Shown here one piece after another: positions 1-36,417 of a stretch of DNA of 47,418 nucleotides. The translations under genes were made by a program, and so were the position numbers. Within the stretch, counting starts at the first letter, position 1, and each line of letters starts with the position of its first letter. The notes below the pieces were generated by a model that made no database searches, had not been told where the DNA came from, and saw only the letters and a program-made list of their open reading frames with translations. This DNA is from a virus, in IMG/VR virus record IMGVR_UViG_3300036790_000457, positions 1 through 47,418 of that record. One strand, written 5' to 3'.

Positions 1-1728
1 GTCCACCCACACTGCAGTACACACAGTGGAGTCGTGCGTCTTGGCCACGTCGATACCGATCACGATGGGCGAGGCCGTGTAGATGGGCTGGGTAATCATC
101 GTCTTGTCGCCCAGCTCTTCGACCTGCTCTTCGGTAATGAACATGCCTCGATCGAGCATCCACTTGAGGCAGTTGTGTGAAGCAAGCCCTTCAGCAATGT
201 AGGTGCGGGTCGATGTGCGAATGGCCACAACTTTGCGAGTGCCGAGGAACTCCAAGCTCTTTACGTGAGGGTGCCGGAATCCATTACGTTCATGCTGACC
301 AATCGAACCAAATCGATCAAGGTCAAGGTTCTCCAACAATCGCACAGGACGAATCTGTCCCAGGAATCGAAGAAGCTCCTTACGCCCACCAGCGATGTTT
401 GTTTTGATTACCCCGTGATCTTCGGTCTCCCAATATCTAAACCCGAACTCGCCAAGATGCTGACGAACTTTGTTGAGCATTGCATTGGGTTTTTGAGCGA
501 ACCCAAGCTGAACGAAACCAGCTGCCGAAGTCAGATGTGAAAGCCAACCTTCTCCATCAAAAGCTGCGGCAAGATAACCTTGCTCGTGAGACTCCTCATC
601 GTCCCAAACATCAGTAATCCTGATTATTTGGTCTGTGTTAACGAGATCTTCGGTCTTCTTCCAGATCGTGCGGCGCCCAGCAGTGAGCACCAACCATTGA
701 TGTTCTGCCGAACATGTAATCGATGTTCCATCATCAAGAGTCAATCGATAGCAAGGGCGGAAGATTTGCCCAACATCTTCAACCACAGCTTCTCGGAACC
801 GACGATGTAGGCCCTTGGCCGGTCGTTCTTCATCGAAACCAGCGAGGCGCATTCCTACTGTCACCTTATCGGCTCGGATGTGCCGCAAGTCTGCGGTCAA
901 GATCCGAGTTTCACCCGATTGGCAATAGCTCATCTGGAACTCATCGGAGTCTTCGCCGAGCCGTTCCTTCTCTCGTCTAATCGACTGGGCGTAGAAGCGG
1001 TTCTCTCTGGCCGCCCTCTTCCAGTCGTAAGCAAAATGATTCTTCTTGCCGTAGGTGGTGCCCCGGTGCTTATTACGTTGGATGGCCTCGTAATAGTCAC
1101 TCTTGAAGGCCGCTGGAGTGCCCACCTTGACGATGGTGCCAGCAGTGGCCACGGTCATCGGGTGGATCGACTTACGCACCTTGGTCGAGTCAGCTTCTTG
1201 GGCCTCATCGATCATTACGAAGTGATAGGTCTTGGACTCGATCTTTGCTTTGGCGTGCGCAGTCTGTCGGCGGCAAATAGAGCCTGAACGAGTCTTCAGC
1301 TCATTACCACTCTGGTGTGCTGCATCATTCATCTCGGGATCAGAGAGAAATCGTTTCGCTGTCTCTGATGTCAAACGCTCAACGATGCGGCCAAAGATGG
1401 TGTCGGCCTGATCATCAATCGGAGCGAAGCAGCCGATTTGAATCCCGTTCTTGAACTTCTTGAGAGTCTCGTCCTCGGGATAGATCGCAGCGAGCTTGGG
1501 GAACACCACCATTGCTGTGGCCGAGACGTCAGCAAGGGTCTCACTCTTGCCCGACTGTCGAGCACACTCAATGGTTATTTCTTCAGCGTCTCCGATGAGG
1601 AGCGAAAAAAAGATACGATCCGCCATCTCAAGTTCGTAAGAATAGAGCTTCATCCCCGTTAACTCGGGAAGAACTGCGAGGCACCCATTGACGAGCGTCT
1701 GCACAAAGTTGATACGTTCATTTGCCAC
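1..1728 (-). CDS. terL: Terminase large subunit, intein-containing, 3' end cut by window edge
   Basis: This is the ATP-driven DNA packaging motor. The frame stays open from a GTG at 1728 to the window edge (576 codons), so the nuclease end is missing. An in-frame TGA lies 16 codons upstream of the GTG and no ATG lies between them; no good Shine-Dalgarno is visible. Residues about 55-62 (CARQSGKSE) are the Walker A of phage terminases. Residues about 170-176 (VMIDEAQ) are Walker B, followed by a TAGT coupling motif. A 251-residue intein interrupts the protein after EFQMSY. The extein resumes with CLKWMLDRGMF and reaches VIGIDVAKTHD, the first acidic motif of the RNase H-like nuclease. Upstream (1729-2012) is a divergent intergenic region facing the Rpf-like gene. 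Sure of family; exact start is uncertain. Confidence 0.93.
   Translation of the reverse strand, partial: MANERINFVQTLVNGCLAVLPELTGMKLYSYELEMADRIFFSLLIGDAEEITIECARQSGKSETLADVSATAMVVFPKLAAIYPEDETLKKFKNGIQIGCFAPIDDQADTIFGRIVERLTSETAKRFLSDPEMNDAAHQSGNELKTRSGSICRRQTAHAKAKIESKTYHFVMIDEAQEADSTKVRKSIHPMTVATAGTIVKVGTPAAFKSDYYEAIQRNKHRGTTYGKKNHFAYDWKRAARENRFYAQSIRREKERLGEDSDEFQMSYCQSGETRILTADLRHIRADKVTVGMRLAGFDEERPAKGLHRRFREAVVEDVGQIFRPCYRLTLDDGTSITCSAEHQWLVLTAGRRTIWKKTEDLVNTDQIIRITDVWDDEESHEQGYLAAAFDGEGWLSHLTSAAGFVQLGFAQKPNAMLNKVRQHLGEFGFRYWETEDHGVIKTNIAGGRKELLRFLGQIRPVRLLENLDLDRFGSIGQHERNGFRHPHVKSLEFLGTRKVVAIRTSTRTYIAEGLASHNCLKWMLDRGMFITEEQVEELGDKTMITQPIYTASPIVIGIDVAKTHDSTVCTAVWVD
172..924 (-). mobile_element. 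Intein with LAGLIDADG-type endonuclease motif inside terminase
   Basis: This self-splicing protein insert is in frame with terminase (residues 269-519, 251 aa). Block A starts at Cys1 with CQSGETRILTADL. Block B reads GTSITCSAEHQWLV, with the expected T-x-x-H type histidine. A LAGLIDADG-like helix, GYLAAAFDGEGWLS, sits in the middle. Block F reads VVAIRTSTRTYIAEG and block G ends SHN before the C-extein cysteine. It therefore keeps Cys1, the block B His, terminal His-Asn and Cys+1, so it should splice. Only one clear LAGLIDADG motif is seen and the element is short for an endonuclease-bearing intein, so endonuclease activity is uncertain. The insertion point lies between the ATPase and nuclease domains. 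Confidence 0.93.
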
Positions 1729-6519: not shown

Positions 6520-7815
6520 TTAGCCCTTTTGCAGTTTGAACTGAGAGTCAGAGATAAGCTGTCGCTGTTTACCCTGGCTCTTTACAGCTCCTCGTGGCGC
6601 AAAGAGCGGCTGCATTTGAGCTTGCACTGCGCTACGGCCACCACGTTGTGTTTTGTGTTCGTGCCATACAACGCTTTGAAACTCAGCGGGATGCACTCCA
6701 ACCTCACGAGCGACGTCAGAGGTAACACCTTCAGCCCACTCGTGCACACCGCTCTTGGACAACAACTGTTCTGCCGGAGTCTTAGGGATGTAACGCCCAA
6801 CTTCTTTTGAGTTCTTACCATATTGCTCTACGAGTGCATCTTTATGGGCCGTCTCTTCAGGCGTCATTTCAGAGCGCACCTTAGGGCCAAACAAAACACG
6901 AGAGTGCTGGATGTCAGTCGGCGACGAAGAGGGATCAATGTAAGAGCGGTAATACTGCTCGACCTTGGGGCCCGAGAGGAGGTGGTGTCCTGTCTCGTCA
7001 GTGGCATCGAGGGGATGGGTACCGCTGGCCAAGTGCTGACGCACGATGTCAGCCGCCTTGGCTGCATTAGCCCGCAGTCCCCGGCCGCCGGTATTAGGAT
7101 CTCCCGGGGCTCCTGACATTACGTGGCGCATGACCATGTGAGCAGCTTCTCGGTTGGTCTGCAGGCCGCTGGGTGTGGCCAGGGCCGTCTTGGGGCTCAT
7201 AACAGCGTTGACGGCCAGAGCAACGTGATAGGGCACCCCAAAATGCTTGGCGTCGTCTTCAAAGCGATCAGACTGGTCCTTGGCGTAGAAGGCCTGGCCC
7301 TCAGGCATGGAGCCCCCGGCCCGCTCCTGGGCGCTCTGCCAGTGGCTCCTGAGCCGGGCCTTGGCGCCCCTGGTAGTCACGCCCTCGCCGCCAAGCACAC
7401 CTCTCACCGATTCCTGCGAAACGCCCTGACGGCGGCCCTCAGCGTTGGGTGTGGCATCGGTCGCCCTCATCCCGGCCCAAGAGCGTGGGGGTGTAGGGAT
7501 GCGCTCTGTGCGGGCCCTCTTGGCCCACTTGGTCTCAAAGGCCTCGGGCTCGTGCTCGGGAGAGAACAGGCGCCCCTGGCCGCCGGGGCCTCTCTCGGGG
7601 GTGCCCTGGAACATCGAGTGCTCTCGGGGCTCGGGGACCGGCCCGGTGCCCTGACGTCGAGAAGCTGCAGCGACATTGTTGCGCTGACGGATCCGAGCAT
7701 TATTGTCTTGGCGCCGCTGAACACCGGCCACCTCATCGGTGTGCTCTTGGGGAGTCCAGTCGTCAAAGCCTCCGGCGTAACTACGCTGTGCCACTCGACT
7801 CCTTGCCAGAGACAA
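6520..7815 (-). CDS. Large accessory protein, possibly DNA-glycosylase-like or minor capsid domain
   Basis: This is a 431-residue basic, largely hydrophilic protein, the biggest in the small-gene array. Residues about 78-92 (GGQGRLFSPEHEPEAF) share a G-Q-x-LF motif with neighbours. The middle contains HVALAVNAVMSPKTALATPSG, then LLSGPKVEQYYRSYIDP, DIQHSRVLFGPK, and near the end VHPAEFQSVVWHEH. The GPKV-x-x-YY pattern with a later D-x-H and W resembles a helical domain I recall from phage MuF-type or glycosylase-like proteins, but this is recollection, not a search. It ends PLFAPRG. Function unknown. Confidence 0.78.
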   Translation of the reverse strand: MSLARSRVAQRSYAGGFDDWTPQEHTDEVAGVQRRQDNNARIRQRNNVAAASRRQGTGPVPEPREHSMFQGTPERGPGGQGRLFSPEHEPEAFETKWAKRARTERIPTPPRSWAGMRATDATPNAEGRRQGVSQESVRGVLGGEGVTTRGAKARLRSHWQSAQERAGGSMPEGQAFYAKDQSDRFEDDAKHFGVPYHVALAVNAVMSPKTALATPSGLQTNREAAHMVMRHVMSGAPGDPNTGGRGLRANAAKAADIVRQHLASGTHPLDATDETGHHLLSGPKVEQYYRSYIDPSSSPTDIQHSRVLFGPKVRSEMTPEETAHKDALVEQYGKNSKEVGRYIPKTPAEQLLSKSGVHEWAEGVTSDVAREVGVHPAEFQSVVWHEHKTQRGGRSAVQAQMQPLFAPRGAVKSQGKQRQLISDSQFKLQKG

Positions 7816-8682: not shown

Positions 8683-8903
8683 TACGTGTTCCTCATCCAA
8701 GGCATCGTGGGCGGATTGTCATGCTTGGGCGCAGCTGCAGCGGCCATGGCGAAATGAGACTGATTTGCCGCCTGGCACTCCATTTGCATCTGCATCGGAG
8801 ACTTCATCCAAGCTTCGGGGCACCAGCTCGTGTCGTCGGCGCCGTCCCAAAGAGGAGCTGCAGCGTTGTCATCCATGTCGTTGTCGCCACCGGCCATGTT
8901 CAT
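8682..8903 (-). CDS. Hypothetical Met/Gln/Ala-rich small protein
   Basis: This is a 73-residue protein, starting at an ATGA overlap and ending at TAATG. It contains DMDDNAAAPLWDG, a Met/Gln run (KSPMQMQMECQAANQ) and an alanine run. It is probably disordered. No family is recognised. Confidence 0.58.
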   Translation of the reverse strand: MNMAGGDNDMDDNAAAPLWDGADDTSWCPEAWMKSPMQMQMECQAANQSHFAMAAAAAPKHDNPPTMPWMRNT

Positions 8904-9064
8904 TGCGTGCTCCTCGCTTCGTGAAAGATCTGTCGCCTAGTTTGCTTCACTTCAGGCCGCTGGCCGTAGTCGGTAAAGGAATGGTTAGCGCCCTCCTGGG
9001 CGCCAGAGGGTTCGACGTAGTTATTAGGGTCTTGAACAGTCATACCGCCTTCGCCGTCAGCCAT
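8900..9064 (-). CDS. Small protein ending in RRQIFHEARSTQ
   Basis: This is a 54-residue protein beginning MADGEGGMTVQDPNN, starting inside the end of the metalloprotease gene. The C-terminus RRQIFHEARS is a variant of the FHDRR motif shared by the array. An upstream TTG/GTG extension is possible but would lie inside the metalloprotease frame. Confidence 0.55.
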   Translation of the reverse strand: MADGEGGMTVQDPNNYVEPSGAQEGANHSFTDYGQRPEVKQTRRQIFHEARSTQ

Positions 9065-9860
9065 CGAACTGTTTACCGTTAAAGAGAGAACTCTGAATAT
9101 TCCACGACGTCCCGTGCCCACCAGCGTGCGTTACACGATCACCTTCATCGGAAACGAAATCGGTGGAGTCATAGCGACTAGAAGCATCAGCTGATCGTCT
9201 GGCTTTCGCTTCTCTATTAAGTTTCGCCCAGCCTCTATATCCTTTCATTTTGGAGTCCTGGGCCGGATAACTGTGATCTTCAGCATGTGCTTCAGTGCCT
9301 CGTCGCACTTCTCGTGGATCAGGTCGATAATGTTCAGTAGCGAATGCATCAGCTACTTCTTCTCGATGCCCGGGAGATTTAAGGAAATCATCCACATCAC
9401 TGTGGGCGTGATGTGCGTGACCAAGCTCGTGGATGGCCGTTGCTCCCATCACCTCTGATTTAGAAGCATTCTTGTCGGTGGAGTGAGTAATACCTCCTGC
9501 ACCGTGATAGATGCTGAGTTTTGAACCTCCTAATCCAGTAAAGAGGCCCATGGATGTTTCATGCTGACCGAGAACATGGTGACCCTTTTCATGTCCATGA
9601 CTAAGTTGAACTTCTGACACCTGTCCACGCATCGCATCAAGAGGAGCAGTGGATCGTGCCAAAGATTGCTTGAAATGAGCCTGCAACTGGCCAGAGCCAT
9701 GCAAGGTATTCCAAGAGGCGTCTTCAACATCAGCCATTCGCTCGGGCGTGTAACCACGCTGATAACGATGCTCATCGATTGGCTTTGGATCATGAAAGAG
9801 CTTGCCTTGGCCGCCCTTAGGAAAATAGGGAGATCCGAACTGGCTAGAAAGTTCAACCAT
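9057..9860 (-). CDS. Zinc metalloprotease (HELGH zincin)
   Basis: This is a 267-residue protein. The ATG at 9860 is preferred: AAGGA lies 8 nt upstream and it overlaps the stop of the small zinc-ribbon gene; a start at 9980 would overlap that gene throughout. Residues about 144-148 are HELGH inside GATAIHELGHAHHAH. The downstream EEVADAFA (about 167-173) supplies the likely third ligand Glu, the gluzincin pattern. Near residue 16, GGQGKLFHDPKPID carries the array's LFHD motif. It may mature virion proteins or act inside the host after ejection. Catalytic residues look intact. Confidence 0.8.
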   Translation of the reverse strand: MVELSSQFGSPYFPKGGQGKLFHDPKPIDEHRYQRGYTPERMADVEDASWNTLHGSGQLQAHFKQSLARSTAPLDAMRGQVSEVQLSHGHEKGHHVLGQHETSMGLFTGLGGSKLSIYHGAGGITHSTDKNASKSEVMGATAIHELGHAHHAHSDVDDFLKSPGHREEVADAFATEHYRPDPREVRRGTEAHAEDHSYPAQDSKMKGYRGWAKLNREAKARRSADASSRYDSTDFVSDEGDRVTHAGGHGTSWNIQSSLFNGKQFDG

Positions 9861-10008
9861 CTCGTCGGTCCTTAAAGACGTCGGCCCATGCACCTGATGT
9901 ACCGGCTGGCGCCTTGTAAACCCATCCTCGGCCCCCACAGTCGCTGCAGCGCTCGCCTTTGGCTTCGTGGCCCACGCCACCGCACTTCTTGCACGTGGCC
10001 TCAGCCAT
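9853..10008 (-). CDS. 51-residue zinc ribbon ending VFKDRRDG
   Basis: This short gene begins ATG GCT GAG at 10008, overlapping the upstream gene's stop by 8 nt. CKKCGGVGHEAKG and RCSDCGGRGW form a DnaJ-like CxxCGGxG pair. The C-terminus ADVFKDRRDG repeats the FHDRR-type tail. It was found by reading the 3-frame translation between neighbours, being under 60 codons. Its coupling on both sides and the shared tail argue that it is real. Confidence 0.72.
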   Translation of the reverse strand: MAEATCKKCGGVGHEAKGERCSDCGGRGWVYKAPAGTSGAWADVFKDRRDG

Positions 10009-10417
10009 TAGCCTCGTCGTCCTTTATCTTGCGAACAAGACCCATCCAGGTGCGATTGGTTTGCACACTGTCTTGTGAAAGAGGTTGGTGCGATATGTCA
10101 TCGAGAACACCATGCACTGCTTCAGGAGTCTGGAGATTCTTCCCCTGAGGGTGGGTGTCAAAGAGATGACGCATGTTTGGATTACCACCAACACCAAGTT
10201 GATGACGAGGAGCATTAACCGTAAACCCTTCTGCATGATGCTCCACGTTGGCAAGGCTGCCGTTTTCCATTGGAATCATTGAAGAGCGCATCCACGTACG
10301 TCCACTGTTTTTAAACTCGCCATTATCAATGGAAGGAAACGTGCGCTCACCAATGCGCACACCACGATCACCGAGGTGCTCAAACTGATCGCTGGAGAGT
10401 GAATCGTGAGCGGCCAT
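10001..10417 (-). CDS. Accessory protein with N-terminal AAHDSLSSDQF motif
   Basis: This is a 138-residue protein starting at a TAATG coupling. The N-terminus MAAHDSLSSDQF matches three neighbours. It then has GVRIGERTFPSIDNGEF, RHLFDTHPQGKNLQTPEAVHGVLDDI and TNRTWMGLVRKIKDDE. The middle 'LFDTHPQGKNLQTPEAVHGVLD' region may be a small enzymatic or binding domain, but I cannot name it. Confidence 0.7.
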   Translation of the reverse strand: MAAHDSLSSDQFEHLGDRGVRIGERTFPSIDNGEFKNSGRTWMRSSMIPMENGSLANVEHHAEGFTVNAPRHQLGVGGNPNMRHLFDTHPQGKNLQTPEAVHGVLDDISHQPLSQDSVQTNRTWMGLVRKIKDDEANG

Positions 10418-10650
10418 TAGTGGAAGTGAATCCTCTCAGGAGAGTGATGATGCGGCACTTGATTAGAGCCCCAATGTTCATCATTGGTGTCAGCCATTAC
10501 TTCATGCTCAGCATCGTGCCAGTAGTTGTTGGACTCATTAGATGTCTGAGAAGGATCAGGATGTGTATGCACCCTCCCATACTCACCACCATGATGCTCA
10601 ACAAGATGACGATCGAGGAACTGACGTCCGAGACTCTCTCCGGCGGCCAT
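10417..10650 (-). CDS. Small His-rich protein with N-terminal AAGESLGRQF motif
   Basis: This is a 77-residue protein with TAATG couplings at both ends. It begins MAAGESLGRQFLDRHL, like its neighbours. It is unusually rich in His (VEHHGGEYGRVHTHPDP; VPHHHSPERIHFH), so metal binding is plausible. No family is recognised. Confidence 0.68.
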   Translation of the reverse strand: MAAGESLGRQFLDRHLVEHHGGEYGRVHTHPDPSQTSNESNNYWHDAEHEVMADTNDEHWGSNQVPHHHSPERIHFH

Positions 10651-10970
10651 TAGTAACTTCCCCGCTCTTCTGGATCCTCGTCGCTCACCGGAATGAACAT
10701 GCGTCCTCTGTCCATTGCATCGATAGCTCTGTGATGGCCGTTAAGAACGGCACGAGGAGATCCATCATCGTGAAAGGAAACAGTGAGCGCAGGATCCTTT
10801 TTGTCGACGTGCTTTTGCAAGCCCTTCCAATCATATTTGCGATACTTGGGCATTCTTCGATTAAGAGTGCCTATCTTGCGGCCAGCACCAAAATCACCAG
10901 CCTCCATGTTCTTCAGCTCGTGGATCGTAATGAACTGCTGCCCCTGTCCAAGCTGATCACTGGCGGCCAA
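10650..10970 (-). CDS. ParB/sulfiredoxin-like domain protein
   Basis: This is a 106-residue protein. The TTG at 10970 is preferred over ATG 10991 because it yields MAASDQLGQGQQF, aligned with neighbouring N-termini. ITIHELKNMEAGDFGAG begins the ParB-like fold. KGLQKHVDKKDPALTVSF follows, and VLNGHHRAIDAMDRG is the GxHR nucleotide-binding signature. ParB-N domains bind CTP or act as nucleases in phages. Here no DNA-binding half is present, so it may be a small nuclease or modifier. Family likely; activity unknown. Confidence 0.75.
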   Translation of the reverse strand: MAASDQLGQGQQFITIHELKNMEAGDFGAGRKIGTLNRRMPKYRKYDWKGLQKHVDKKDPALTVSFHDDGSPRAVLNGHHRAIDAMDRGRMFIPVSDEDPEERGSY

Positions 10971-11247
10971 CAGAACCGCCCCGCTTCGCAATGCTGCCCA
11001 CTCGGTAATCCATCATCAGGACGTGGGGATGCTCGTGTCCTTGCGCACCGCCGCAGTTGATTCCACCTTCACCAGCGCTGCACTGAGGCGTTGAAACTTG
11101 ATCAGGAGGAACAGCCTTAATCCGCCAGCCCTCTTTGTGCTCAGACGTGTAACCGCCTTCTGGATGACGTTCGATTGTCTTGGCAGGACCATAAATCCAG
11201 GGCACCTTCCCGAACTGATCGTGCGACATACTCTCTTCGGCGGCCAT
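10957..11247 (-). CDS. Small protein with N-terminal AAEESMSHDQF motif
   Basis: This is a 96-residue protein, coupled to its neighbours. The N-terminus MAAEESMSHDQFGKVPWIYG shares the array motif. It has two Cys near the middle (QCSAGEGGINCGGAQGHEH) and a C-terminus HVLMMDYRVGSIAKRGG. No family is recognised. Confidence 0.68.
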   Translation of the reverse strand: MAAEESMSHDQFGKVPWIYGPAKTIERHPEGGYTSEHKEGWRIKAVPPDQVSTPQCSAGEGGINCGGAQGHEHPHVLMMDYRVGSIAKRGGSVGRQ

Positions 11248-11253
11248 AACAAA

Positions 11254-11790
11254 TCAACCCATCATCGGATTACGACGAGAAGGAAGACCATACTTCGGCC
11301 GCAGCATGGCGAGCTGAGAGGCCCGATGGATGTCCATGGTGAGTACTGACGTCGCACCACGAGGAGCGAGCTGTCCATCGATCGTGGGCTGAGGCATGAA
11401 ATACTCAAGAGCCGGTGCGTAGCGCTGTCCCGTTGTTGCTTGGCGCTCAATGCCATCGAGGGGAGTGACACCTTCGGGCCACAGGTAATCCCCTGGGTCT
11501 ATGCGTTCGCCGAGGTGTACGCCACGCTGATAGGAGCGTTGGTTTACCCGAGCCTTGAGGCTGTCGAGGATGCGATCGCCACGACGTGACGTAATGGTCC
11601 CGAGGTAACCATCGGGATACTCACTTTGCGGCGTGGAGTCGTACATCATGCGCCGACGATCGAGCACACTCCTAACCCAAGGTTGAGGGGGCATCGATCC
11701 GACCGGCCCAGCCGGGTTTTGTTGGCCAACAGAGTTCCCGGCGTATGTCTGACTGAACTGAACGCCCCCGCCGTAGTTACTTCCAGCCAT
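11254..11790 (-). CDS. Hypothetical virion-type protein
   Basis: This is a 178-residue protein. The N-terminus is Gly/Gln/Ser-rich (GSNYGGGVQFSQTYAGN). The middle has PWVRSVLDRRRMMYD and ARVNQRSYQRGVHLGE, the latter echoing RVAQRSYAGGF near the start of the 6520 gene. The end is SVLTMDIHRASQLAMLRPKYG. It is probably structural; no known family. Confidence 0.68.
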   Translation of the reverse strand: MAGSNYGGGVQFSQTYAGNSVGQQNPAGPVGSMPPQPWVRSVLDRRRMMYDSTPQSEYPDGYLGTITSRRGDRILDSLKARVNQRSYQRGVHLGERIDPGDYLWPEGVTPLDGIERQATTGQRYAPALEYFMPQPTIDGQLAPRGATSVLTMDIHRASQLAMLRPKYGLPSRRNPMMG

Positions 11791-12338
11791 CAGACCAGCA
11801 CCTCCTCTGTGTGCTCAACTCTTTCCACAGAGGCCATGATCTCATGAATGCGTTGCCTTCTCCGAGCCATCATGTGGGGCTCCAATACCCGCATTAGCTC
11901 AAGTGCATCAAGGAACCTCTGAACATTCCAAATCCAACACTGCTTGTGATGGACCTTCTGTTTCTTAATCTCTGAAATGGTCCCTACACCTGTAATGACT
12001 TGAACTCGTTCTAATGTGTCCCTGTCAGTAGAGGCACCTGAGATCCTTGGGAAGGGATATCCACGTTTGGTGTTGATCCCGAAACAACCCTCACCTTCAA
12101 GCCAGCCGACGAGCCATGCCAAATCATTTGCACTGATCTCTTTCAGCGCACAAGGAAACAGGAAGGAGTGAATAGATGAGCCCTGGACTCGTACAGTCTT
12201 CCTGCGTAGCTTCTTACGACAGTTCACGCAAATAGACTGTCGTCCCTGGCTCTTAGTCTTGTCTCGATTAAACGCACCGAGGAGCTTTAGCTCACCGCAG
12301 ATATTGCAACGCTTCCGAGGTTTCACATAAACCGTCAT
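11790..12338 (-). CDS. Free-standing LAGLIDADG homing endonuclease
   Basis: This is a 182-residue protein. Residues 11-45 form a CxxC...CxxC ribbon (CNICGELKLLGAF; ICVNCRKKL) typical of the N-terminal module of phage homing endonucleases. LAWLVGWLEGEGCFGI (about 74-89) is the LAGLIDADG helix. The rest, VQVITGVGTIS and CWIWNVQRFLDALELM, fits a single-motif enzyme acting as a dimer. GCAGGA lies just before ATG. It sits between two small genes with a TAATG coupling and interrupts no visible gene. Confidence 0.88.
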   Translation of the reverse strand: MTVYVKPRKRCNICGELKLLGAFNRDKTKSQGRQSICVNCRKKLRRKTVRVQGSSIHSFLFPCALKEISANDLAWLVGWLEGEGCFGINTKRGYPFPRISGASTDRDTLERVQVITGVGTISEIKKQKVHHKQCWIWNVQRFLDALELMRVLEPHMMARRRQRIHEIMASVERVEHTEEVLV

Positions 12339-12393
12339 TCCTGCAGTTTAGCTTCTTATCAAAGCTTTCGCCGCTGGACAATAATGGTCATTA

Positions 12394-12906
12394 CTATTTT
12401 GATTGGCCGCCCTTGAAAGGAAAGCGTTCGACTGTATCGCCTCGATGCAGCGACAGATGTGAGAAGGCCACATCTGTGGGCTCGACCGGGTCAGGCAAAT
12501 CATTCTTGCTATCAGCATATTTGAGTGTAATGTGCGGATGGAATCCATGTTCTGAATCAGAGAGATCAGCGAACTGCTTTTGCAACTTGTTAATGCCGGG
12601 GATCTTAGGGCGAGCGTAGACAGGCGTCATGTTGTCAGAGGACTCCGAAGGAGCAAATGTTCCTCGGCCGCTCACTGTTCCTCGCAACGGAGGAGTCGAC
12701 GCTGCTATTTGAGCCGCACGAGAGGAGATCTCATCAAGACGTTTCTTAGGAACATTCTTGCCAAGATAAACCAAGGTGATGTGATGATCATCTACGCCGC
12801 CAGGAGACTGCGGGATTACACCCCGAGGCAGATCCAAAGACAGCATCGATCCTGAGGTGTGCTCGTCCCGATTGGGGTCGGAAGGAAACTGATCAGGATT
12901 GAGCAT
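12394..12906 (-). CDS. 2H phosphoesterase (LigT/2'-5' RNA ligase-like)
   Basis: This is a 170-residue protein with both catalytic H-x-T motifs: HITLVYLG (about 42-49) and HPHITLKYAD (about 133-142). The fold between them, KRLDEISSRAAQIAAS then FADLSDSEHG, fits the two-lobed family. These enzymes hydrolyse cyclic phosphodiesters or 2'-5' oligoadenylates; in phages some counter OAS-like or CBASS/Thoeris-type signalling, but the substrate here is unknown. The N-terminus MLNPDQFPSD shares the DQF element. 12339-12393 is a short spacer. Confidence 0.85.
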   Translation of the reverse strand: MLNPDQFPSDPNRDEHTSGSMLSLDLPRGVIPQSPGGVDDHHITLVYLGKNVPKKRLDEISSRAAQIAASTPPLRGTVSGRGTFAPSESSDNMTPVYARPKIPGINKLQKQFADLSDSEHGFHPHITLKYADSKNDLPDPVEPTDVAFSHLSLHRGDTVERFPFKGGQSK

Positions 12907-12912
12907 TAGCCC

Positions 12913-13131
12913 TCAAGAGGGAGTCGTTCGTTGGAAGGGTGCACCTTCAGGGTTGTATCGATGCGGCTGTTGGCCATCGCCAATGGAAGCCTCACCGGGC
13001 TTGTGCCATTTATGGCCTTCATTACGGCCGCAGTCCTTACAGTCCCCTAGTTCGTGCAGGGCTCGGAACTCAGGATCACGCATGTTGCGCTCCGAAGGAG
13101 TAAGACGACGATCGTTAAAAAGATCACTCAT
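12913..13131 (-). CDS. Small zinc-binding protein starting MSDLFNDRR
   Basis: This is a 72-residue protein. The N-terminus MSDLFNDRRLTPSERN places the FHDRR-type motif at the start. LHELGDCKDCGRNEGHKWHKPGE then supplies CxxC and two His, a likely zinc site. It overlaps the upstream gene by 4 nt. Confidence 0.68.
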   Translation of the reverse strand: MSDLFNDRRLTPSERNMRDPEFRALHELGDCKDCGRNEGHKWHKPGEASIGDGQQPHRYNPEGAPFQRTTPS

Positions 13132-13364
13132 TTTTGCCGCCGATCATTAAGGGCAACTTCATTACTGCAATGCGGACAGGACGAAGACAGTGCACCGCCA
13201 GCTCCGACGTACGCACCGTGAGAGCAAAAGAGATTCGACTGTTCTGGATGAAGCTCTAAATGTCTTTTTACGCCACCCTGCACGATTTTCAGTCGAGCGT
13301 CAGGATCCTTTCCGGCATTGCCGAAGAACCGAGGATCACGATCATCACCAAACCGAGAAGTCAT
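13128..13364 (-). CDS. Small zinc-binding protein ending LNDRRQK
   Basis: This is a 78-residue protein. SNLFCSHGAYVG and SSCPHCSNEVALNDRRQK supply C-x-H and CxxC ligands. The C-terminus is another DRR tail. The N-terminus is charged (MTSRFGDDRDPRFFG). It is coupled to both neighbours. Confidence 0.67.
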   Translation of the reverse strand: MTSRFGDDRDPRFFGNAGKDPDARLKIVQGGVKRHLELHPEQSNLFCSHGAYVGAGGALSSSCPHCSNEVALNDRRQK

Positions 13365-13555
13365 TTGATTCGCCGATCATGAAAGAGAAGTTGACCATGT
13401 GCATCGTGAGAGTGGTCGAGCTGCTCTGCGTATTCGTCGTGCAAGTGCGAGTGGTAATCAGCCAAAGAAATCCCCTCTCGTTCAAAGTGGGAACGCTCCC
13501 GAGTCGAGTCGGTCGGATGAGACTCCTTGTCCAGATGCTTCGTCCAGCTAGCCAT
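13361..13555 (-). CDS. Small His/Asp-rich protein ending GQLLFHDRRIK
   Basis: This is a 64-residue, strongly hydrophilic protein with many His (YHSHLHDEYAEQLDHSHDAHG). The last eleven residues, GQLLFHDRRIK, are the clearest copy of the shared motif. TAATG couples it to the upstream gene. No family is recognised. Confidence 0.67.
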   Translation of the reverse strand: MASWTKHLDKESHPTDSTRERSHFEREGISLADYHSHLHDEYAEQLDHSHDAHGQLLFHDRRIK

Positions 13556-13776
13556 TACAGGCTCGTCAACCCCGGCTCACCCGTTACCTGATCTGAGGTG
13601 TCTTCGGGCTTGGGTGTTGAACTGTTGTCTGAGCGCCGGTCATGAAAGATGGCGTCCATACGCCTTTGCTTGGCCGCTGCCACGTTGGGATTACTCGATC
13701 GCATTGAATCCTCCACTCCATGTTCGTCCACGGTAACGATACTCGTCCCGCTTCCTCTGAAAGTTCTTATCGTCAT
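13555..13776 (-). CDS. Small protein with internal IFHDRR motif
   Basis: This is a 73-residue protein. AAAGGGAG upstream and an ATGA overlap support ATG 13776. KQRRMDAIFHDRRSDN is near residue 45, followed by an acidic Ser/Thr/Pro tail. It is probably largely disordered apart from the motif. Confidence 0.65.
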   Translation of the reverse strand: MTIRTFRGSGTSIVTVDEHGVEDSMRSSNPNVAAAKQRRMDAIFHDRRSDNSSTPKPEDTSDQVTGEPGLTSL

Positions 13777-14222
13777 CGCCGCTTGCTCCCTTTAGCCATG
13801 CGTGCGAGTTTGCCGAGAGTCTGAGCTTTGCCCACGAGCGCTTGACGTTGTTGTCTCGCCGTTGGTGGCCGGGGAGGACGGGGCTCTTTCTGGGGCTTGA
13901 CGTAGCTGGGATCATTACGCTTCAAGAAACGTTCGTCTCGCCGTCCCCGTGCATACTCCTCGTCAGGATTAGTCGAGGGCCGCTCCTGCTTATCGAAGAG
14001 CTTGGGATTAGCAGCGACGGTCGTGTTCGCTTCAACCTTGTGCTGCACCCGCTCGGTGTTATGCGCATCGAGGGCCCGCAAAGAAAGACGCAGCTTATCT
14101 TCGGTGGCCATCGAAGGAGGAAGTTGTCCATGGGTAGCATGGATCTCGTCGTCGGAGTAACCGAGATCGTGCAGTGTCGAGGACGCCTCATCGCCGAACT
14201 GTTGAGGATTAAGATTAGACAT
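13773..14222 (-). CDS. Basic helical protein with NLNPQQF N-terminus
   Basis: This is a 149-residue protein. It starts MSNLNPQQFGDEASS, a relative of the DQF motif. STLHDLGYSDDEIHATHG looks like a small UBA/three-helix unit. AANPKLFDKQERP contains LFD. The C-terminal 40 residues are very basic (PRPPRPPTARQQRQ; LARMAKGSKRR) and may bind nucleic acid. Its start overlaps the upstream stop as TGATG. Confidence 0.68.
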   Translation of the reverse strand: MSNLNPQQFGDEASSTLHDLGYSDDEIHATHGQLPPSMATEDKLRLSLRALDAHNTERVQHKVEANTTVAANPKLFDKQERPSTNPDEEYARGRRDERFLKRNDPSYVKPQKEPRPPRPPTARQQRQALVGKAQTLGKLARMAKGSKRR

Positions 14223-14395
14223 CAGTCTTCCCGCCGGTCATGAAAGAGATTACCATGTCGAGCCTCATTACGAGCCCGTACACGCTCTAGCTGGGCGTTT
14301 CTCATGCCCACCTTGATCTCCTCTAATCGAGCATTGCTCTCCTCTTTGGAGAAGGCATGAGGAGGGTTCTCGGGATCGAAGAGTTGGCCCTGCAC
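14222..14395 (-). CDS. 57-residue protein with LFDPENP start and LFHDRRED end
   Basis: It starts at GTG 14395, with AGGAAGG about 6 nt upstream. It begins MQGQLFDPENPPHAF and ends HGNLFHDRRED, so it carries the motif at both ends. Between them is a charged helix (ESNARLEEIKVGMRNAQLERVR). It is too short for most gene callers; coupling, the ribosome site and the motif support it. Confidence 0.72.
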   Translation of the reverse strand: MQGQLFDPENPPHAFSKEESNARLEEIKVGMRNAQLERVRARNEARHGNLFHDRRED

Positions 14396-33417: not shown

Positions 33418-36417
33418 TCAAAGGATGTCGCTCACATTGCTGAAGGCCGAGGGCCCCGTAACCAGGCTGAAGGTGCTTCCGATCGGGATATATTCAGGCA
33501 TTGCCTCGACCAGTCGAGCCAACTTTATTTCCAGGTTCGGATAGTAATCCGAAGCGGACTCATTAGGTGTCCCTTCCCAGAAGTAATCGGTCGTATCTTC
33601 GCCGTTGGCATCGAAATAGGGCCCTAGAGCAGGGGAAGACTCAATCAAATATCCGGTGACATAGTGCTTTTCGCCCGTAGTGAGTGCTGAAGCAAATACA
33701 CCCACATTCATTGTCGTCGCACCAACAGGAGCGGCAATATCTATAATAGAGCCACGATTGAACTGACCGAGAGTTTCAGTAAGCGAACCAATGAACTGTG
33801 TGCCGTTATTGAACGTGACCTCAAACTCAAAAGTTCTCGCTGAAGCGCCGGTACCGGGCATCATGTAAACAGAGACGGTATAGAACGCTGTCGTCGTTGC
33901 TGTGCTCACAGCTTCTAAAGCAATGGGAGTATTGAAATCAAACCCAAAGTTTCCAGAAGTGGTGTTCGCACCCACCAACCACCCTGCTGAAATCCCCGAA
34001 GGCCAAGGAAGAGTAAGAGACGTCGACACTGACAGTGTGCCACCGCCACCACTTTGAGTGTTAACGACCCCGTACGTTCCTCCTAGAGCACCAGGATTAG
34101 GCATCAGATTCTGTCGCAACGGAAACAGATTGATCTTAATGTCCCTCGGAGGTTCCCATGCAATAAGGCTGGCGTTGATCTGTACAAGCTCAGCATCCAT
34201 AAGATGAAGATCACCACTCAACGCTCCCGTTGATTTCACAGTGCGCCCAAAAGTGTATGCCCCCGCCGGAGGTGTTCCTGTTACATATGCTCTTACCCAT
34301 GTATCAGCGATTTCTGTAACTGAAGATCCGGTTGTCGATGAAATAAAGTTCCCACTAAGGCCGTACCAGTCCATCTGCATCTCAAAAGATCGAAGCGTTG
34401 GTGTGGTCTGCTGAACAGGCATGAAATAAGCCGAAACTGTGTAATCATTAGTAAGTGGCACAACAGGGATGCCGAGATTTTGAGCATTGGCCGCCGTGCA
34501 AGTCGTAATCTGAACTGGCACCGTACCAACAGAGCCCCAGAACCAGCTGGAGTAGCCGATTTGAAAATAGAAAATGCCAGACTCAGAAGCCAAATAAGCC
34601 ATGAGAACCCAAGGGCTCGCTGGAGGGTTCACAGAATAAGTAAGTTCAGTCCACGTTGTGCCATTCCACGACCAAGTGTCATCCCAAAGAGTGTTGGGCG
34701 TTCCCAGGGTGAACCCACCGAAAAGGAGCATTACTCCGGCGGAAGCATCGTAAACAATGGGAGCCTCGGTTTGCCAATATCTCGCTGGTGGACTTGTCGC
34801 AGGGAAGAGTTCAGTCCACGTTGTGCCATTCCACGACCAAGTGTCACCGTAGTTGGTGAAGGTGCCATTTATGTCGGTATACCCACCGAACATAATGATG
34901 GTTCCTGTAGCGCCGTCATAGCCCATTGCGCAGCCATATCTCCCTGGTGGACTTGTCGCAGGGAAGAGTTCAGTCCACGTTGTGCCATTCCACGACCAAG
35001 TGTCATTACCGAACGAGTTTGTATTCCACAAAATCATGACATTGTTTGCAGAGTCATAAACCATTCCACCAGGCTGTCCTGCTGGTGGACTTGTCGCAGG
35101 GAAGAGTTCAGTCCACGTTGTGCCATTCCACGACCAAGTGTCATTCAGCACCGATGTTGCATTAGACCCTGACTGAAGAATCCAGGTCGAACTCGCTGGA
35201 TCATAGGCCAAAACTGGATCCAATCGACCAGGAGGACTCGTCGCAGGAGAGTGTTGAGTCCAACTCGTGCCGTTAAACGTCCAAGTTTGTGAGCTGTAAG
35301 ACCCCAACGAATAGCCTGAGTAAAGAAGAATCGTAGTCGGTGAAGAAGCGATAAACGTTTGAACACCGGTCTCAGGACTGGTTGCTGGAAAAGTTTGTGT
35401 CCATTCCAGTGCGGTGGAGAGAGATGTAAACTCCAACACATTTTCGTTGTTTACAGGCAAATACCCTTCGACATCGAGAGCCGTGTTTAAAGATGTTGCC
35501 GTCGGATTTCCCTGAATCGGCTGATAAGCAGTATGGGGTGGTGTTACTCCATACATACTTGCCGGAATGGTCTTTAGAGAAGTAGCCGTATTACCTGGCA
35601 CCCAATGTCCAACTGACAAATCAAATGCAGAATCATCGAGCTGAATCTCAAGATTATTACCAAACGACGTCTTGGCTCCAAACCCCGAGAAGGCAGATGC
35701 AGCCGCTGCAATGCCACCAGGAGTGCCTCGTTGCTTATAGAGAGCCACGGCGTTCTTCACAAGCACACGAGAACGGGTCATGCCCAGCTCGGGCTCGTAC
35801 GTCACTCCATACGTTGCACCGAGATCGGGGAGAAGAGCACCCGAAATGTAATCAGCGCTCGTGAGTGTCGTCATGGTCTCAATCTCAGAACGCATCCAAT
35901 CCATCTCATAGCCGAGGAGGTTTAGGAATCGCTCCAAAGGCCCTTCAGGTTGCGCCGTCGTCGCAAGGTCACCATCGAGCCACATGTAAAAATCAGGAGT
36001 CCATGATTGAAAGGTCTGACCAAATCCCCAATCAGTGAGCACGAGCCCCTGTGCTGAGCCCGCCAATGTGGATGCCAGGATTTGCGGCGTTGCCTGTTCG
36101 ACCAATGTAACGAAGAGGGCATAGTAATAAAACCGCCCAGCTTGGAGATCGGTATCAACGTACTGAGCAGAAAAATACGGTGTCGCAGATTCCCCTTCAC
36201 TCAACAACACTGTTCCATCAGTTTCGCTAACAGGGATCCCATATGCTGATCGAACAAGCACCTGTCCGATTACTCCGGGGACAGGCGTCCAGTTAACCTC
36301 CAATGCGTTGTAATCGATGGGAGTGACGCTGATATTCGTGTACGCCGAAACAATGGGTGGAGTCCCAAAAACCGTTATCCCAAATACAGCATTACCTAGT
36401 GGCGCATAGTTAGCCAT
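33418..36417 (-). CDS. gpI-like tail fibre with Kelch-type propeller
   Basis: This is a 999-residue receptor-binding-type protein. Residues 1-120 include a fibronectin-III-like part (TPIDYNALEVNWTPVPG). Residues about 150-260 (FLNLLGYEMDWMRSEIETM; LVKNAVALYKQRGTPGGI) match the phage tail protein I/gpI family that docks fibres on the baseplate. Residues about 325-630 hold Kelch-like blades, each with DTWSWNGTTWTELFPATSPP. Two jelly-roll-like domains follow (TVSAYFMPVQQT; YTVSVYMMPGTGASARTF), then a C-terminal WEGTPNESASDYYPN end. The blades are near-identical in DNA (see repeat). It probably decides host range. Confidence 0.85.
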   Translation of the reverse strand: MANYAPLGNAVFGITVFGTPPIVSAYTNISVTPIDYNALEVNWTPVPGVIGQVLVRSAYGIPVSETDGTVLLSEGESATPYFSAQYVDTDLQAGRFYYYALFVTLVEQATPQILASTLAGSAQGLVLTDWGFGQTFQSWTPDFYMWLDGDLATTAQPEGPLERFLNLLGYEMDWMRSEIETMTTLTSADYISGALLPDLGATYGVTYEPELGMTRSRVLVKNAVALYKQRGTPGGIAAAASAFSGFGAKTSFGNNLEIQLDDSAFDLSVGHWVPGNTATSLKTIPASMYGVTPPHTAYQPIQGNPTATSLNTALDVEGYLPVNNENVLEFTSLSTALEWTQTFPATSPETGVQTFIASSPTTILLYSGYSLGSYSSQTWTFNGTSWTQHSPATSPPGRLDPVLAYDPASSTWILQSGSNATSVLNDTWSWNGTTWTELFPATSPPAGQPGGMVYDSANNVMILWNTNSFGNDTWSWNGTTWTELFPATSPPGRYGCAMGYDGATGTIIMFGGYTDINGTFTNYGDTWSWNGTTWTELFPATSPPARYWQTEAPIVYDASAGVMLLFGGFTLGTPNTLWDDTWSWNGTTWTELTYSVNPPASPWVLMAYLASESGIFYFQIGYSSWFWGSVGTVPVQITTCTAANAQNLGIPVVPLTNDYTVSAYFMPVQQTTPTLRSFEMQMDWYGLSGNFISSTTGSSVTEIADTWVRAYVTGTPPAGAYTFGRTVKSTGALSGDLHLMDAELVQINASLIAWEPPRDIKINLFPLRQNLMPNPGALGGTYGVVNTQSGGGGTLSVSTSLTLPWPSGISAGWLVGANTTSGNFGFDFNTPIALEAVSTATTTAFYTVSVYMMPGTGASARTFEFEVTFNNGTQFIGSLTETLGQFNRGSIIDIAAPVGATTMNVGVFASALTTGEKHYVTGYLIESSPALGPYFDANGEDTTDYFWEGTPNESASDYYPNLEIKLARLVEAMPEYIPIGSTFSLVTGPSAFSNVSDIL
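34643..35142 (-). repeat. Four near-identical Kelch-blade DNA repeats
   Basis: The plus-strand block beginning near GTTCAGTCCACGTTGTGCC recurs at about 34643-34680, 34786-34845, 34944-35004 and 35081-35142, the last three extended by an identical GGTGGACTTGTCGCAGGGAA lead-in. Diverged copies follow near 35230 and 35376. Spacing is about 140-160 nt, one per propeller blade. Confidence 0.88.

Follow-up and report, generated by a model that had tools for sequence, protein, structure and literature searches.

The capsid-targeting sequence (CTS) of phage T4 is an N-terminal tag, the cargo-loading peptides of encapsulins are short, terminal sequences borne by diverse cargo and read by a shell of HK97 fold, and the bacterial sliding clamp is bound through a motif with the consensus QL[S/D]LF. 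The internal proteins of T-even phages are highly diverse small proteins, often directed against the host, that share only a targeting sequence (PMC3012670). Here we analyze a five-residue peptide, F-[N/H/K/R]-D-R-R (FxDRR), that recurs among the late genes of an uncultured, contractile-tailed phage represented by the 47.4-kb virus record IMGVR_UViG_3300036790_000457, the whole of which is referred to as the window. Within one actinobacteriophage family the peptide is borne, mostly at the termini, by many small proteins that are otherwise dissimilar, and outside this family it is nearly absent. We tentatively read it as a portable docking tag, the most likely use of which would be to load accessory or effector proteins into the virion.

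In the window, four small late proteins have FHDRR, FNDRR or FKDRR at an end or close to it, and a fifth has it internally. All the copies cited in the initial annotation of this DNA, together with the variants IFHEARS and LFHDPK, are present where it had placed them. The best copies are FKDRR in gene 9853, FNDRR in gene 12913 and FHDRR in genes 13361, 13555 and 14222, and the weaker variants are LNDRR, FHEAR and LFHDPK:

9853..10008, minus strand: 51-amino-acid zinc-ribbon protein (DnaJ-type CxxCxG) with C end VFKDRRDG; FKDRR at 9862-9876
12913..13131, minus strand: 72-amino-acid Cys-containing protein with N end MSDLFNDRR; motif at 13105-13119
13128..13364, minus strand: 78-amino-acid CxxC protein with C end ALNDRRQK; LNDRR at 13137-13151, the weakest copy, lacking Phe
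13361..13555, minus strand: 64-amino-acid His-rich protein with C end GQLLFHDRRIK; motif at 13370-13384
13555..13776, minus strand: 73-amino-acid protein with internal IFHDRRSD at residue 44 of 73; motif at 13633-13647
14222..14395, minus strand: 57-amino-acid helical protein with N end MQGQLFDPE and C end GNLFHDRRED; motif at 14231-14245
8900..9121, minus strand: small protein with C end QIFHEARSTQ; degenerate FHEAR at 8912-8926
9057..9980, minus strand: putative zinc metalloprotease with probable ATG start at 9860; LSSQF at 9837-9851 and QGKLFHDPK at 9783-9809

Most carriers match nothing in Pfam or PHROGs, and the concatenated carriers used as a query gave no match among 50,697 phage records.

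The frequency of the peptide was assessed in a low-redundancy set of 2,491 open reading frames of related phages (412,682 residues), which were called mechanically and may carry wrong starts for a few carriers. F[NH]DRR is matched 23 times in this set, against a mean of 0.22 for the 59 other anagrams of the pattern (2 for the best of them), and the broader F[NHKRTSQ]DRR 31 times, against a mean of 0.96 and a maximum of 5 in 200 within-protein shuffles; matches in an HNH protein (L089:6377), a polymerase (L095) and an S74-like site (L026) are among these 31 and are unrelated to the motif. A DNA-level scan of 30 related records, some of which are near relatives whose counts are not fully independent, yielded 27 matches, the reversed pattern giving 3; in eight unrelated phage genomes the counts were 2 and 0. 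The claim of a non-chance recurrence thus holds against both shuffled and unrelated phage sequences, and the recurrence extends far beyond the window.

The motif-bearing proteins have little else in common. Once the motif was masked, 35 carriers fell into 29 BLAST clusters, between which BLAST detected no further similarity, and 23 of 33 copies lie within eight residues of a protein end (8.1 expected; reached in 0 of 20,000 random placements). Both results strongly support the proposal that this is a linear motif placed terminally on zinc ribbons and disordered proteins that are otherwise unrelated. A single-sequence structural model of the 14222 protein has lower confidence around the tag, models of this kind being weak evidence, and an AlphaFold model of a carrier from a relative (G003) was too uncertain to be used. 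The preferred end differs between lineages: copies in the window's group favor C ends (7 of 13), whereas those of a large, uncultured sister group favor N ends (14 of 20). The second residue differs as well, being Asn in 4 of 13 window-group copies versus 18 of 20 sister copies (Fisher p = 0.0007, with related genomes not fully independent); in the window's group it is His, Asn or Lys.

The Arg codons of the motif (CGT, CGG, CGA, CGC, AGA and AGG) occur in near-background proportions, those for Phe, Asn and Asp likewise vary close to background use, and some copies lie far from any following start codon. Since synonymous codons are free and copies can be remote from starts, the constraint falls on the peptide, and the motif is a protein-level linear motif rather than a ribosome-binding site or DNA element. 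Several copies do stand directly before the following start codon, as would suit a Shine-Dalgarno AGGAGG read as Arg-Arg, a promoter or a recombination site, but this artefact is refuted by the varied codons and by the many N-terminal and internal copies, and we accord it a negligible likelihood.

Three uncultured relatives identified through conserved-gene searches (G001, G002 and G003; the G001 terminase is 72% identical to that of the window) each have the motif, again on small proteins:

L003:3926: copy ending the protein as SSLFNDRRSSDGG
L088: QGQLFTDRRK (C end), MVDFNDRRKE, GFKDRRQKNV (C end) and GLFNDRRMR
L089: RVFKDRRVI and KLFRDRRGTR (C end)
L093: SLFHDRRQL

In G003, the SLFHDRRQL carrier is the second gene downstream from that for the major capsid protein. 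Comparison with these relatives reveals turnover of carriers. The C-terminal IFHEARSTQ of the window aligns with GFKDRRQKNV and VFKDRRVIS of relatives, and is hence a decayed copy at the position orthologous to their FKDRR. LFHDPK is probably part of another pattern, QGxLFx[D/P]. Furthermore, the gene preceding the 13773 homologue encodes a 57-amino-acid protein in the window and a ParB-like protein ending QGQLFTDRRK in L088, the tails being alike, which indicates that the tag has passed from one protein to another. No relatives of the metalloprotease or of the 13773 product turned up in single-sequence searches.

The wider distribution of the motif was traced through a conserved late gene:

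11254..11790, minus strand: conserved protein of the gp48 type, anchoring the late module beside which carriers cluster family-wide

This protein is present in six Streptomyces phage records, corresponding to five phages, and in hundreds of uncultured contigs. In the Borockvirus-type Streptomyces phages, the closest cultured relatives of the window phage, there is one syntenic motif copy per genome near gp48, and the gene two downstream of gp48 ends in FKDRRVRSAGRPKKAS, FRDRRV or YRERRV. In the sister contigs, carriers lie 1-3.2 kb downstream of gp48, at most three per genome, with N ends such as MMFNDRRG, MYFNDRRT, MQFNDRRR, MEFNDRRK, MLFRDRRV, MVDFHDRRD and MTQFNDRRP; some have HNLFNDRRIGG rather than a motif at the start. 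Copies reading MIEFNDRRED and APIFNDRRTK are located in other late clusters; in L186 and L187, MIEFNDRRED carriers stand among dense clusters in which GNAT-like, ADP-ribosyltransferase-like and ParB-like genes are repeated. The genomes of Streptomyces, Actinomadura, Terracoccus and Nonomuraea contain gp48 homologues too, from which it follows that the family infects Actinobacteria, and the gp48-type late modules in these genomes (L238-L243) are probably prophages of this same family. The motif is nearly absent from the flanks of relatives recognized by the terminase large subunit (TerL) only, but the view of a narrow lineage drawn from those flanks was overturned when the gp48-anchored search revealed a module that they had missed.

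The grouping of carriers near one anchor gene, together with the single Borockvirus copy in a related position, is what would be expected if the carriers derived from one duplicated ancestral family, or had been spread as a short recombination cassette, of which only this peptide, itself without a common partner, could still be recognized. We deem this improbable: the peptide may be N-terminal, C-terminal or internal, its bearers are zinc-ribbon, helical, ParB-like or disordered proteins with nothing else in common across the 29 clusters, and the retention of exactly five residues, at unpreserved synonymous sites, requires selection.

A docking tag for virion loading would account best for these observations. 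From the lineage-dependent drift of the second residue we infer that a single phage-encoded partner would read all the copies within a phage; it would most likely reside in the assembling head, as scaffold, portal or capsid, and the tag would bring a range of accessory proteins and effectors into the virion, much as the T4 CTS does. This destination is favored because of the late-module location, the coding strand that the window carriers share with the structural genes, the capsid-adjacent copy and the effector-like neighbors. These neighbors resemble injected effectors: there are weak matches to ADP-ribosyltransferases, GNATs and phosphatases, and one protein is clearly a LigT-type phosphoesterase. 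The turnover of carriers, with one tail on different proteins and an FKDRR site decayed to FHEAR in the window, also speaks for a docking tag.

The main competing explanation, which we hold possible but less probable, is a docking peptide for an intracellular hub to which small zinc ribbons and basic proteins would attach late in infection. This hub would be the RNA polymerase or ribosome of the host, or else a complex for replication or lysis encoded by the phage. The frequency, clustering and placement of the motif fit this explanation equally well, and proteins that bind nucleic acids or polymerases are typically zinc ribbons or small and basic, several carriers being Cys-rich. The lineage drift of the second residue, however, is easier to reconcile with a partner made by the phage than with a conserved partner from the host, and carriers cluster with late genes, one of them close to the gene for the capsid protein.

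Several observations weigh against virion loading nonetheless. Some family members have no motif near gp48, and many sister-group carriers are basic while the window carriers are not, so that basic charge fails as a trait common to all carriers. The position of the tag varies, unlike that of the N-terminal T4 tag. A Peptidase_S78 prohead protease was not found in eight records, leaving a T4-like removal of the tag unsupported; the search for an S77 protease had no positive control. Finally, the literature searched contained no virion proteome for any carrier phage, and there is no mention of mass spectrometry or of the virion in the BRock announcement.

The initial annotation had spoken of a docking or degradation-type motif, an interpretation that is partly supported. 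Docking, with a putative partner, is its favored half and fits best. As to degradation, terminal placement would be compatible with a stability signal (degron) read by a host protease, but copies occur at both ends and internally, a destruction signal does not predict broad conservation on late proteins, and we know of no actinobacterial degron resembling FxDRR; this possibility is accordingly very improbable.

A second short motif, L[S/G/N]xxQF, marks small and often enzyme-like late proteins neighboring the FxDRR carriers, GNAT-like, Arr-like, ParB-like and LigT-like proteins among them. It occurs near the N end of 45 low-redundancy proteins, versus 4 for the reversed pattern, and 11 times in an internal stretch of equal length in 2,236 proteins. 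In the window it is found on the minus strand between 10001 and 14222, and a third pattern, QGxLFx[D/P], occurs on late proteins:

10001..10417, minus strand: 138-amino-acid protein with N-terminal LSSDQF
10417..10650, minus strand: 77-amino-acid protein with N-terminal LGRQF
10957..11247, minus strand: 96-amino-acid protein with N-terminal MSHDQF
12394..12906, minus strand: 2'-5' RNA ligase/LigT-like phosphoesterase with N-terminal LNPDQF (companion QF motif)
13773..14222, minus strand: 149-amino-acid protein with a weak RuvA_C-like match and N-terminal LNPQQF; its homologue adjoins a carrier in L088
6520..7815, minus strand: 431-amino-acid protein with QGRLFSP (7558-7578), a member of the QGxLF pattern

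Elsewhere L[S/G/N]xxQF is present at L003:85, L003:468, L088:6496, L084:14968, L226:7079 and L226:7447, reaching its highest number, about ten per genome, in record G025, and both kinds of motif coexist on one protein in window gene 9057 (with the LFHDPK variant) and in L088:5044. The QGxLFx[D/P] pattern, found on window genes 9057 (QGKLFHDPK), 6520 (QGRLFSP) and 14222 (N-terminal QGQLFDP) and on L214:10616, is related to FxDRR yet separable from it; it resembles the clamp-binding QxxLF motif. It is conceivable, if rather unlikely, that the two labels form an address code, with N-terminal L[S/G/N]xxQF on effector-like enzymes and FNDRR on small zinc-ribbon or basic proteins. Such tags would sort many late proteins to distinct virion sites or delivery steps and would pass freely between proteins.

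The small-protein region at 4-16 kb shares its strand with the terminase and tail genes of the window. The baseplate protein has 32% identity to that of BRock, and over its final 56 residues the terminase query is 55-59% identical to BRock and pSt2308:

1-1728, minus strand: terminase large subunit gene, interrupted by an intein at about residues 269-519

Inteins related to this one match genes of Mycobacterium cluster C and Gordonia phages; two inteins are apparent in the portal gene of G001 (L084:16416-19742), and one intein-like insert in L003:2764-3945, a homologue of window gene 7781. The window also encodes a 999-amino-acid tail protein (33418-36417) with kelch-like repeated units (DTWSWNGTTWTELFPATSPP). 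Borockvirus TerL ends in NPFYDRRR, which matches FxDRR, possibly by chance. TerL C ends (L001:20687-22261, L002:24528-26102, L003-L082) have a conserved [N/S]PF[F/Y] and a short tail. A portal-docking peptide suggested by the Borockvirus end proved a weak lead, the nearest of the examined relatives with a complete TerL ending in NPFVQGHPLRAG and others in NPFFR or SPFFGR.

For most small phage genes no function can be assigned, since no domain links them to known proteins. A family-wide tag provides a common handle on such orphans, and one binding partner, if found, would explain dozens of families. The string FNDRR did not appear in a phage context in the papers of the library searched. Should the tag serve packaging, the capsid-targeting principle of T4 would hold for actinobacterial phages as well; the tag would then provide a route for putting proteins of choice into the particles of these phages and would flag unknown genes whose products enter host cells.

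Among described systems, the sliding-clamp motif is approached by some QxxLF copies (QGQLFTDRRK in L088; QGKLFHDPK, QGRLFSP and QGQLFDPE in the window), but in most FxDRR copies there is no Gln three positions ahead of the Leu, and what is conserved follows the Phe; a test on the carrier list found no constant upstream Gln, with M, L, E, Q and others preceding the Phe. FxDRR resembles encapsulin cargo-loading peptides in being short, often terminal and borne by diverse proteins; those peptides are longer, usually C-terminal and operate in cellular compartments. It resembles the T4 CTS as one conserved tag on diverse small phage proteins, and differs in its unrelated sequence, in its presence at either end or internally and in an encapsidation that is here putative. 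Closest to hand are BRock gp46 and its Borockvirus orthologues, small genes beside the gp48-type gene with FKDRRVRSAGRPK, FRDRRV or YRERRV near the C end, which share neighborhood and peptide with L089:895; there the tag stands alone, whereas in the window's group and the sister group it has been multiplied.

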